Source: Bernardetiaceae bacterium
GTDB taxonomy: Bacteria > Bacteroidota > Bacteroidia > Cytophagales > Bernardetiaceae
DNA: 40,764 nt
NCBI GenBank assembly: GCA_020832465.1
Contig: JAFIER010000078.1
Span: 1 to 40,764 of the forward strand
Reading direction: 5' to 3'
In this document: piece after piece, positions 1,811 through 30,993 of the stretch
How the letters are laid out: every line of letters begins with the position of its first letter
Position numbering within the stretch: position 1 is the stretch's first letter
Position numbers and translations under genes: made by a program
Notes under the pieces: generated by a model
The model's database searches: none
Told to the model about the DNA's origin: nothing
What the model saw: the letters and a program-made list of their open reading frames with translations, nothing else

Positions 1811-1953
1811 TAAAAAAGCACTTTTTATCACTAATAATAATGGATCATACTATTAGACATTTTCCCTCCAGAAATAACATTTCTTTGAGACATGTTATTT
1901 CTAAGCCCGTTTTTGCATAAGTAGTATGATAATAGATAAAAAGTGCTTTTTTA
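1811..1953. terminator. Bidirectional terminator split by a MITE insertion
   Basis: TAAAAAAGCACTTTTTATC at 1811-1829 is the exact reverse complement of 1935-1953. Together they form a 19-bp stem with A/T tracts at both feet, typical of a bidirectional terminator between the convergent genes ending at 1755 and 1966. The loop now holds an 83-bp MITE copy (1846-1928). Confidence 0.7.
1846..1928 (+). mobile_element. MITE copy 1 (short form, 83 bp)
   Basis: The ends are CATACTATTAGACATTTT and AAGTAGTATG, inverted repeats of each other at the tips. The interior carries the AGAAATAACATTTCT hairpin module and a truncated piece (TTTTTGCATA) of the second palindrome. Flanks are ATAATGGAT (1837-1845) and ATAATAGAT (1929-1937), 8 of 9 identical, consistent with a 9-bp target duplication. 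Confidence 0.75.
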
Positions 1954-6836: not shown

Positions 6837-6927
6837 GGTAGTCTTAAAGATGTAATGCTCAAAGTCTTTCAAAACTAACAGTTCTCAAAGAACTGTTAGT
6901 TCTAAGCATTACTTGTTATACACTACC
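6837..6927. repeat. Long composite palindrome with AACTAACAGTTCT core
   Basis: Three nested arms pair: GGTAGT/ACTACC (6837-6842, 6922-6927), GTAATGCT/AGCATTAC (6852-6859, 6905-6912) and AACTAACAGTTCT/AGAACTGTTAGTT (6873-6885, 6889-6901) with a CAA loop. The core belongs to the hairpin family also present at 21839 and 29616. Confidence 0.65.
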
Positions 6928-9971: not shown

Positions 9972-10050
9972 CATACTACTTAACTACTTAGATATGCGCC
10001 AGCCAGAAATCAAACATTTTTTTCAGACATGTTATTGCTAAACCCTTTTT
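9972..10050 (+). mobile_element. Degenerate MITE remnant (copy 7)
   Basis: It begins CATACTACTTA and contains CCAGAAAT...CAGACATGTTATT, a decayed version of the MITE hairpin module. The right terminal repeat is not recognisable. It occupies the leader of caspase-like gene 2. Confidence 0.5.
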
Positions 10051-10097
10051 TACTATTCATTTTTCTCAAACTATCTTTATCAAAACGGCAAATTATT

Positions 10098-11010: not shown

Positions 11011-11106
11011 CATTTCAAAATGAGGCGGTCGGTGAAAACAGCAAAAATGGCTTGAGTATTTATTTTGAAGTCCTAGCCTACACTACTGCGTAAATTTGAA
11101 TTGCAA
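11011..11106 (+). repeat. Dispersed repeat, copy A (partner at 29662-29764)
   Basis: Shared blocks with the other copy include ATTTCAAAA, GGTG-A-AACAGCAAA and ACTACTGCGTAAAT followed by TGAATTGCA. Both copies follow an AGAA...TTCT hairpin, so the hairpin and this tail may be one composite element. Confidence 0.45.
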
Positions 11107-11157
11107 CCTAATAATCTTTAATAAGCATTCTTACTTTCCATATTTAATCCTAAAAAA

Positions 11158-12565: not shown

Positions 12566-12687
12566 CATACTGCTGGACATTTTCCATATAGAAATAACAT
12601 TTCTTTGAGAAATGTTATTTCTAAGCCCATTTTTGCATAGCGTGAGGTTTGCAAACCCCACGCTATGCAAAAATGTATAGTAATATG
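12566..12687 (+). mobile_element. MITE copy 3 (full form, 122 bp)
   Basis: The ends are CATACTGCTGGACATTTT and AATGTATAGTAATATG. It contains both the AGAAATAACATTTCT hairpin and the GCATAGCGTG palindrome. Flanks AAAAAAAAT (12557-12565) and AGAAAAAAT (12688-12696) are 8 of 9 identical. The left flank includes the last two bases of the caspase-like 3 stop codon. Confidence 0.75.
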
Positions 12688-12751
12688 AGAAAAAATTATA
12701 AAAAATTCGGACTTACGTCAAGTTGGTAAATCGAATTAGATAATTTCATCA

Positions 12752-12776
12752 CTAACAGTTTTTAGAAAACTGTTAG
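12752..12776. repeat. Hairpin CTAACAGTTTT with 3-nt loop
   Basis: CTAACAGTTTT (12752-12762), loop TAG, AAAACTGTTAG (12766-12776), with ATC and GAT also facing each other outside. It is a variant of the interspersed hairpin family and sits in the leader of the Ig-like gene. Confidence 0.55.
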
Positions 12777-12838
12777 CGATAAAAAATATTTAGCAAAGCT
12801 ATCGTACACCCAAAAACCTGATAACTCAAACTATAAAT

Positions 12839-15532: not shown

Positions 15533-15617
15533 CATACTACTATACATTTTTGCATAGCGTGGGGTTTGCAACCCCCACGCTATGCAAAAATTTGCTTAGA
15601 AAATGCCTAATAGTATG
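15533..15617 (+). mobile_element. MITE copy 4 (palindrome-only form, 85 bp)
   Basis: It begins CATACTACTATACATTTT, runs through the GCATAGCGTGGGGTTTGC palindrome and ends AATGCCTAATAGTATG. The AGAAATAACA hairpin module is absent. It is flanked by identical 9-bp copies of ATTTTTGTC (15524-15532 and 15618-15626), a perfect target-site duplication, 11 bases past the WD40-OmpA stop. Confidence 0.8.
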
Positions 15618-21838: not shown

Positions 21839-21885
21839 AAATTTTAGAAATAACATTTCTGTCAGAAATGTTATTTCTAAAATTT
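21839..21885. repeat. Perfect 22-bp-arm hairpin, AGAAATAACATTTCT type
   Basis: The arm 21839-21860 (containing TTTTAGAAATAACATTTCT) is an exact reverse complement of 21864-21885, with loop GTC. It stands alone, without MITE ends, between the FKBP and Uma2 genes. Compare the compensated variant at 29616-29662. Confidence 0.75.
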
Positions 21886-21912
21886 AATATTTCAAAAAAG
21901 CCCGATAAACCT

Positions 21913-29615: not shown

Positions 29616-29662
29616 TAGTTTTAGAACTAACAGTTCTGGCAGAACTGTTAGTTCTAAAACTA
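29616..29662. repeat. Perfect 22-bp-arm hairpin, AGAACTAACAGTTCT type
   Basis: The arm 29616-29637 (containing TTTTAGAACTAACAGTTCT) is the exact complement of 29641-29662, with loop GGC. It has the same layout as the hairpin at 21839-21885 but with paired base changes on both arms. Confidence 0.75.
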
Positions 29663-29764
29663 TTTCAAAACTACGCAGTTTGTGTTTGGTGGAGACAGCA
29701 AACACGGCGAGAGTAGTTGTTTTAATACAGTAGCTTATGCTACTGCGTAAATATGAATTGCACC
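29662..29764 (+). repeat. Dispersed repeat, copy B (partner at 11011-11106)
   Basis: It shares ATTTCAAAA, GGTGGAGACAGCAAA and CTACTGCGTAAATATGAATTGCA-like blocks with copy A, in the same order and orientation, and like copy A it directly follows an AGAA...TTCT hairpin. Confidence 0.45.
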
Positions 29765-29775
29765 CCTGATTTTGA

Positions 29776-30335: not shown

Positions 30336-30683
30336 CATAATTTATTTGGCAAAAGTAAAAAAAACTGTGTTTATTTTAAGTGAATACTTTTAATAGCGGA
30401 CAGAATACCCCATTGCTCAAATACTTTATAAAAAAGCAAAACAAAAGCAAAATACAAAATTAAATTTCAAAAAACAAACAATTTATACTTTTTTTATCTA
30501 TACAACTTCTATTTCAAGCAGCAAACTATATAAAAATTTGGAATTTATAACTTTTTTTTCATAACTTAGCAAAATGTTAATTTTAAATCTTTTGCCTCTT
30601 TTTGTTTTTTTAATTGGCTAATTCCCAAAAAAAAGCTAACTTGAGAATTGAAATGGCAAAATTTGTGTGCTTGTATTGATTTA
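30336..30683. other. AT-rich intergenic region without a visible gene
   Basis: About 350 very AT-rich bases between the regulator promoter and a MITE copy. No credible frame or RNA gene was seen. Confidence 0.4.
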
Positions 30684-30805
30684 CATACTACTAGACATTC
30701 GATAGCCAGGAATAACATTTCTTTGAGACATGTTATTTCTAAGCCCATTTTTGCATAGCGTGGGGTTTGCAAACCCCACGCTATGCAAAAATGTATAGTA
30801 GTGTG
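30684..30805 (+). mobile_element. MITE copy 5 (full form, 122 bp, perfect 9-bp duplication)
   Basis: It begins CATACTACTAGACATT and ends AATGTATAGTAGTGTG. It holds the AGAAATAACA-type hairpin (as AGGAATAACATTTCT) and the full GCATAGCGTGGGGTTTGC palindrome. Identical ATTGATTTA repeats flank it at 30675-30683 and 30806-30814. This is the best type copy in the window. Confidence 0.85.
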
Positions 30806-30899
30806 ATTGATTTACAAAAAAGTTTGCCCGTGCGTAATTAGGGATATGCACAATCGTTTTGCAAAATATTCATGCAAGGTTGATGTTTTGATGTTGCAT

Positions 30900-30993
30900 C
30901 ATACTGCTATACTACATTTTTTTATAAAAAAATGGGCTTGGCACTCATAGGTCTCAAAGAAGTATTAGTGCTAACTGGAGAATGTGCAGTATG
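30900..30993 (-). mobile_element. Diverged MITE copy 6 in opposite orientation
   Basis: The ends are CATACTGCTATACTACATTT and AATGTGCAGTATG. Read on the minus strand it shows CCAGTTAGCACTAATACTTC, CTTTGAGACC and AAGCCCATTTTT, a diverged hairpin module. Flanks ATGTTGCAT and ATATTATAT match at only 6 of 9 positions. It reaches into the leader of the SpoIIE-type gene. Confidence 0.55.

Follow-up and report, generated by a model that had tools for sequence, protein, structure and literature searches.

Bacterial MITEs such as QMITE2 (Coxiella), Correia/NEMIS (Neisseria), RUP and BOX (pneumococcus) are short, non-coding elements with inverted ends and target duplications, and they lie mostly between genes. 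BOX and Correia elements also occur in modular variants. In the parts of the literature that we drew on, a GTAG palindrome is described inside the MITE QMITE2 (PMC5896051), Rickettsia palindromic elements (RPEs) appear as palindromic repeats able to sit in frame in a protein gene (PMC10969869), and REP elements (GTAG/CGTC palindromes) are short and dispersed, some of them embedded in other repeats (PMC3733652).

Here we describe family E, a group of elements from a Bernardetiaceae bacterium that resembles QMITE2, Correia/NEMIS, RUP and BOX in all of the features named at the outset. It differs from them in its 9-bp duplication, in its ends, which are those of an IS4-type insertion sequence (IS), and in an internal palindrome, P, that is common to elements with unrelated ends. 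In a single case P, like RPEs (PMC10969869), apparently sits in frame within a protein-coding gene, but it belongs to a distant bacterial group, measures about 44-57 bp against the roughly 150 bp given for RPEs in the portion of that account used here, sits mostly outside genes and is carried by several small inverted-repeat elements. Like REP elements, as far as described in the consulted part of PMC3733652, it is a short dispersed palindrome that is in some cases embedded in other repeats; unlike them, it is symmetric, has no one-sided tag and does not lie beside the genome's own RAYT-like gene. No description of family E or of P was found in open-licence PMC literature (titles and starts of abstracts), and for GGTTTGCAAACC that literature gave nothing beyond a virus context.

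The window, meaning the whole stretch of 40,764 nucleotides analysed here, is contig C4 of a 4.60-Mb genome in 289 contigs. It contains a 122-bp copy of family E on the plus strand (30684-30805), which consists, in this order, of the left end, a hairpin module H, AAGCCC, palindrome P and the right end. The end-motif search placed the left terminal inverted repeat CATACTACTAGACATT at 30684-30699 (plus strand) and the right one, CACACTACTATACATT, at 30790-30805 (minus strand), where it overlaps the end of P. H (AGGAATAACATTTCT-TTG-AGACATGTTATTTCT) occupies 30708-30740 on the plus strand, and P (CATTTTTGCATAGCGTGGGGTTTGCAAACCCCACGCTATGCAAAAATG, unstranded) is a perfect palindrome of 48 bp at 30746-30793. 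Comparison of the flanking 9-mers, in the register given by the 55 end pairs described below, identified a perfect (9/9) target duplication, ATTGATTTA, at 30675-30683 and 30806-30814 (both unstranded). The limits 30675-30814 proposed in an earlier note on this DNA correspond to the element plus its two 9-mers.

Two further copies on the plus strand carry both modules: 2410-2531, flanked by TTCTGTGAT/TGCTATGAT (7/9, computed), and 12566-12687, flanked by AAAAAAAAT/AGAAAAAAT (8/9, computed). The copy at 1846-1928 (plus strand) has the hairpin only, with P mostly deleted, and a duplication of 8/9 (ATAATGGAT/ATAATAGAT, read from the sequence), while the 85-bp copy at 15533-15617 (minus strand) kept P, lost the hairpin and is perfectly duplicated (ATTTTTGTC, computed). 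All five 9-mer scores reported earlier, for the copies at 1846, 2410, 12566, 15533 and 30684, were reproduced. Seven copies had been listed, and the end motif occurs at these places far above chance, with 9 matches in the window at up to 3 mismatches against a mean of 0.57 and a maximum of 2 in 100 shuffles; two of the seven are weak, however. One is diverged (30900-30993, minus strand), with both ends present (CATACTGCTATAC / CATACTGCACATT) and flanks ATGTTGCAT/ATATTATAT that agree at only 6/9 as read from the sequence; the other is decayed (9972-10052, plus strand) and consists of a left end and hairpin, by eye without a right end.

Genome-wide (4.6 Mb), the end CATACTACTATACATT yielded 687 matches at up to 3 mismatches (350 forward and 337 reverse); the reversed end, used as a control, gave 76 (35 and 41). 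Half of this excess corresponds to about 300 copies. The commonest size is 122 bp, found in 26 of 88 end pairs. Duplications were assessed in 61 stretches comprising 962,849 unmasked bases, about a fifth of the genome: the window, 20 stretches near listed ends, 20 contigs chosen by number and 20 stretches from large contigs. From these, 55 non-overlapping end pairs were picked on the ends alone (up to 4 mismatches per end), ignoring the flanks. The flanking 9-mers agreed at 9/9 in 18 pairs, at 8/9 in 12 and at 7/9 in 6, so that 36/55 pairs had at least 7 of 9 bases duplicated; the remaining 19 matched at only 0-6 of 9 and are without duplication. At shifted offsets (-4 to -1 and +1 to +4), only 0-2 of the 55 pairs reached 7/9. 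The chance-level matching of flanks that would have spoken against the MITE reading of the earlier note was thus not seen. The length of the duplication is precisely 9 bp: another 61 pairs gave 24 perfect matches at length 9, 2 at length 8 and 0 at the other lengths from 5 to 13. Since ties among these pairs were broken by the duplication itself, the main count rests on the 55 pairs. Family E is short, multi-copy and non-coding and has terminal inverted repeats and a duplication of fixed length, features by which MITEs are recognised. The copies are confirmed as observed, and the evidence supports reading them as a MITE family with 9-bp target duplications.

Neither the earlier note nor we saw a transposase with these ends in the window, but one was found on contig C277. 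The search for a full IS with the same termini, which the note had suggested, led there to a 1,224-bp IS4-type element (locus L131) bounded left and right by the same 17-bp end, CATACTACTAGACAAAA. Transposase profile searches of the genome covered PF01609, PF00872 and PF01797. PF01609 (DDE domain) had 3 matches, and matching ends were present at L131 only. The outer ten bases, CATACTACTA, are common to the IS and the MITE consensus, and 13 of the first 16 bases are alike; family E hence has its ends in common with an autonomous element of its genome, a further mark of a MITE. The transposase gene (L131:1291-2445, minus strand, 384 aa) scored 78.9 bits against PF01609, and the YREK signature Y-(2)-R-(3)-E-(6)-K could be read directly as Y-PL-R-WQI-E-VCFKHL-K. 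Against the IS4 model NF033591 the protein reached 149.7 bits, just below the curated NCBI cut-off of 152, and therefore we use the name IS4-type for the partner IS. A sequence search of the PDB gave no match to the transposase at an E-value of up to 1.

In the parts of De Palmenaer 2008 (PMC2266710) that we used, the IS4 family is defined by a DDE domain, the YREK signature and duplications of about 10 bp, and the table row for subgroup IS4Sa gives a size of 1150-1750, ends CA------T and duplications of 8-10 bp. To the extent of that row and definition, the partner IS resembles IS4Sa in its DDE domain, its YREK signature, its length of 1,224 bp and its ends CATACTACT, which fit CA------T; the likeness comes from size and ends, and the 9 bp are known from the MITE copies and from homologous loci. 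Only one full IS copy was found; beyond it, DNA matching gave just a 31-bp piece of the right end, on contig C194. The final base of the IS is also the final base of contig C277, which leaves the target duplication of the IS itself unreadable; the bases before its left end are ATAGCTAAT. Homologues of the transposase are present in 12/58 genomes of relatives (13/59 with the own genome). Ends were examined at 17 of the 19 homologous loci fetched and at the two other PF01609 loci of the own genome. Inverted ends with exact 9-bp duplications flank 7/17 homologous loci (29-35% identity; L139, L140, L142, L144, L149, L150 and L152). The ten other homologous loci and the two own loci showed no such ends with duplications, several of them being fragments or lying at contig ends.

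Other candidate movers were discarded. An IS256-type transposase (PF00872) had no match in the genome. Among the sampled stretches, the longer candidate L110:2057-5068 departs from the ends at 5 of 24 bases and contains three ORFs that, by eye, do not resemble transposases, and a 299-bp candidate (L056) is without a long frame.

A composite on contig C194 (L134 766-908) connects the MITE to the IS. There, the terminal 31 bp of the IS come directly after a 112-bp MITE, giving 143 bp with a MITE-type left end, an IS-type right end and a perfect 9-bp GGTTTGGAT on both sides. Such an outer duplication is not expected if a MITE had merely landed beside an IS remnant. The simplest reading is that the composite moved as a unit and that a single transposase acted on MITE and IS ends alike. 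MITE and IS are alike at their ends only, with no internal IS match to a MITE found (40 of the 890 first-look MITE candidates were scored), and therefore a simple internal deletion of the L131 IS does not explain the MITE. We consider it very probable that family E is a non-autonomous miniature transposon using the ends of an IS4-type IS, which, together with the separate joining of P to several elements and the proposed upkeep of its arms, discussed below, forms our best joint explanation. L131 is the probable source of the transposase. This enzyme would bind the common ends in trans, and the MITE would be inserted at 9-bp staggered cuts, mostly in intergenic DNA.

We also considered a REP-type origin of the E copies, in which a RAYT (Y1) transposase would move them as palindromes and their ends and 9-mers would be incidental. 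Their interior is palindromic, and Y1 transposase domains matched in 14/15 genomes searched (12/15 over the cut-off), with three matches in the own genome. The exact 9-bp duplications at fixed E ends argue against this route, since single-strand Y1 transposition does not fit them. Moreover, P is symmetric and carries neither a one-sided GTAG nor a CGTC tag, the own RAYT-like gene (L100) is flanked by other palindromes of the TACCCTTTAGGGTGCG type, and in genome G003 a Y1 gene is present without P, in G023 one P without a Y1 match. RAYT was accordingly rejected as the mover of P, no linkage being seen in the surroundings of L100 (one of the three Y1 matches) or across the 15 genomes; one-sided tag and RAYT linkage, by which REPs and REPtrons are defined, are both absent from P. 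Altogether, this explanation of family E appears very improbable. Judged from translations, the RAYT-like Y1 gene itself (L100:1060-1767) lies between methyltransferase-like and helicase-like genes, as in a restriction system.

Insertion of family E is recorded in one place. The flanks of 53 copies, each with at least 7/9 duplicated, were joined by a script and matched to other sampled sequence, and one copy (L129:14885-14977, flanks GTGGGAGCT/GTGGGAGGT, duplication 8/9) was found to interrupt another dispersed repeat. Six other sampled copies of the interrupted repeat, 80-96% alike, are all uninterrupted; the target 9-mer is exact and single in two of them (L085 and L125), and the other four are diverged there. 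This empty site within the genome stands in for the comparison of strains, and a single target was observed in one case. The repeat that provides this control lies around AAACCCACGATTTTAATCGTGGGAGCTAAAAAGCC, has an internal hairpin and occurs at L129 near 14885, L071, L084, L085, L098, L121 and L125.

None of the 54 E copies of up to 160 bp lies inside a called ORF of at least 100 aa, although such ORFs make up 78% of the sequence. The median distance to a gene 3' end is shorter for the copies, at 62.5 bases, than the 150 bases of random intergenic points (three of the distances involve an E copy overlapping a called ORF start). A position near gene ends would suit functional RNA structures, i.e., terminators or mRNA-stabilising hairpins that are under selection and for which the transposon features are historic, and four strands from three copies indeed fold as RNA far more strongly than their shuffles do (z -7.2 to -12.1). 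However, purifying selection against insertions within genes accounts for this location just as well. The runs that come after P are of A and not of U, which led us to reject an intrinsic terminator on account of the wrong polarity of the A/T runs beside it, and Rfam gave no match in the window at gathering scores. Considering also the substitutions in the arms of P (see below), we regard a selected RNA structure as improbable and keep to the transposon reading of family E.

The same 54 copies score as 20 with hairpin and palindrome, 27 with the hairpin only, 2 with the palindrome only and 5 with neither. At least one arm of P is kept, by eye, in 25 of the 27 hairpin-only copies, and therefore deletion inside palindromes explains most of them. 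The single-module copies are mostly deletion derivatives of a two-module ancestor and would have arisen by deletion inside the palindromes, and recombination of modules within family E was rejected on the same count. The family had been called modular in the earlier note: modules do occur together or singly, yet an exchange of modules within the family does not hold. The real modularity is of another kind, as one palindrome is found in other elements with unrelated ends.

Several other small repeats were noticed in the same genome. Free-standing relatives of hairpin H, AGAACTAACAGTTCT-N3-AGAACTGTTAGTTCT and variants, lie in the window at 362-409, 6867-6914, 12744-12791, 21842-21889 and 29619-29666; three of the five (6867, 21842 and 29619) begin about 100 bases or less past an ORF end, and their half-sites, AGAACT and AGAAAT, vary in concert. 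Two copies, 76% alike, of a further small repeat whose ends resemble GGTTGCAATTCAAATTTACGCAGTAG lie in the window (11031-11108 and 29688-29765), and a relative near L081:5000 contains a P-like palindrome and two hairpins. A different palindrome family, CTGTAGCAACGAAGCTGGAGCTTCGTTGCTACAG and relatives, is present at L095:4802 and in L119 near 4600.

P has the core GGGTTTGCAAACCC. Using the pattern CATANNNNNGGGTTTGCAAACCCNNNNNTATG with free arms and 1 mismatch, we found it in 11 of 148 genomes of the order, the own genome included, and 0 times with the reversed control. These genomes belong to six genera and three families (f1, f3 and f14) and hold 88 (own), 63, 25, 9, 9, 6, 3, 3, 3, 1 and 1 copies. 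A phylum-wide search with another pattern found P in one of 395 genomes, namely the own one, in a sample without P-bearing relatives; the search of the order is therefore the more telling.

The flanks of 42 P copies from other genomes form 17 clusters. At least four further small elements carry P together with inverted ends that are, by eye, unrelated to the E ends: A (ends TAAACGTTATCACGGTT), B (GACTTTCGCAAATTCA), C (GGCTCTTA...TTTGGACTGATA) and D (GAAGTTGTTTAAGAATA). For each of the four, at least one copy, but not every copy, has inverted ends that beat the best of 100 shuffles; the ends of L163 and L164 of C and of several A copies were not above 100 shuffles. One cluster holds end types A and D, seemingly because the A copy L168 adjoins the hairpin of D copies. 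Three weaker hosts were also seen. In G457, the ends of K (AGAGGTTGTTTAAA) and G (ACTCTACCCTACTAAAA) recur between copies and are no better than the best of 100 shuffles, those of G resembling the IS4-type ends TACTCTACCCAACTA of L144 with its 9-bp duplication; in G521, host I is a recurrent GCGCGC-rich repeat whose inverted stretches adjoin P and are not proven ends. Eleven P copies fall into single-copy clusters, and for several of these (e.g. L188, L202, L203 and L209) no inverted ends above shuffles were found; such copies apparently are bare. P is thus not specific to family E: it belongs to a family of palindromes of about 44 bp that occur apparently bare as well as with unrelated ends. 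A converse arrangement was seen by eye at L260, where MITE A ends enclose other palindromes, GTTCAGACAAGATGTCTGAAC, without P, giving the same frame with a different payload.

One bare copy is read within a protein gene. In G521, P is in frame within a hydantoinase B gene (PF02538, 575 bits), where 18-19 residues around SFSIARGLQTPRYGERI are absent from all four aligned homologues (59-72% identity; two are of one genus, and a fifth match, a 32% paralogue, was left out). Examination of 110 P-like palindromes placed 7 within open frames of 110 codons or more; a domain search was run for the hydantoinase B frame only, and this is the only case judged a clear insertion into a gene. As read from a single draft contig, in which an assembly error is possible, it would represent one gene and no general habit. 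The same gene (L232:1562-3388) has further stretches that are absent or different in the homologues, namely SKSEEEEGEKTPPPEAGG in its interior and its first ~60 residues, which include LSFGEGLGVRLSPSFGGGWGE. Within G521, 23 additional places are matched by portions of the initial 74 residues, and the gene may hold more repeat insertions.

Two histories of P have to be weighed against these data. P may not be mobile at all, being either part of a common ancestral element that later acquired different ends around it or a site captured repeatedly because it is useful, e.g. to a DNA-binding protein. In the copies seen, P sits at one fixed place within family E and within MITE A, which amounts to one capture per element, and CATAG and GGGTTTGCAAACCC vary less than the sequence that separates them (partly by choice of the pattern). 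On the other hand, the P copies without recognisable ends in G504, G457 and G521 and the in-frame P missing from four hydantoinase B homologues suggest entry without a MITE. We regard an immobile P as possible but rather doubtful. A bolder history, which we put forward tentatively and somewhat short of calling it probable, is that P would itself be a mobile element of about 44-57 bp, with neither ends nor a gene, that would enter DNA alone, even in frame, and travel as the payload of unrelated MITEs, while template switching would keep it near perfect. P probably joined the different elements separately.

The arms of P remain complementary while their sequences change. At five free positions per side in 35 P copies of other genomes, 163/175 pairs are complementary; 25 of the 35 copies are fully so, and 22 arm sequences are represented. 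Not every copy is independent, since some are orthologous. MITE A provided a set chosen independently of P, by a 67-bp stretch outside it, which matched 44 places in 7 genomes. From 30 loci fetched, 25 gave limits for P and 22 were of equal length, 14 of them distinct; L257, L262 and L275 were dropped for other lengths, and L258, L259, L260, L265 and L278 for having no limits. In the 14 distinct sequences, 242/252 cells are Watson-Crick, a pairing reached by 0/2000 shuffles, and two-sided changes occur at 7 of 18 pairs (27 cells). Standard pairs make up 96.8%, and covariation is 0.314 vs 0.110 in shuffles. Divergence between copies is alike for P and for the body of MITE A (0.133 and 0.130, n = 20). 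For family E, 25 distinct P of 44 bases gave 435/475 Watson-Crick cells, with one-sided departures in 40 cells vs two-sided changes in 15, which speaks against strong upkeep in this family.

A G·U pair is tolerated in RNA and an A·C pair is not, while in DNA both are mismatches. One-sided cells in MITE A comprise 2 G·U and 8 A·C, and in family E 16 are of G·U type and 24 are others, of which 12 are A·C. This shows little preference, contrary to what the RNA-structure explanation considered above would lead one to expect. As neither MITE A nor E has a clear G·U excess, pairing, where it is kept, seems to be kept at the level of DNA. The arm sequences point to such upkeep in MITE A and, more weakly, in family E. 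Template switching is a known homogeniser of inverted-repeat arms, as described in the parts of PMC8604942 and PMC7202029 drawn on here. Judging from the pattern of changes, the best explanation of the two-sided arm changes in MITE A would be that DNA replication switches templates and so copies one arm of P onto the other, rather than that an RNA fold is selected.

Family E is a further well-documented MITE with a probable transposase, and the common palindrome matters more. P represents a natural replicate experiment, since it recurs within unrelated transposon frames of several kinds, seemingly also by itself, and in one case in a gene. It makes testable why high-copy bacterial MITEs are often packed with hairpins and whether palindromes spread by themselves, and whether template switching in replication or selection on RNA keeps dispersed palindromes perfect. 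If P is mobile, high-copy MITEs would be exchangeable frames, i.e. ends, around exchangeable palindromic payloads; different transposases would then multiply P as a payload, and template switching would keep it near perfect while its sequence drifts.
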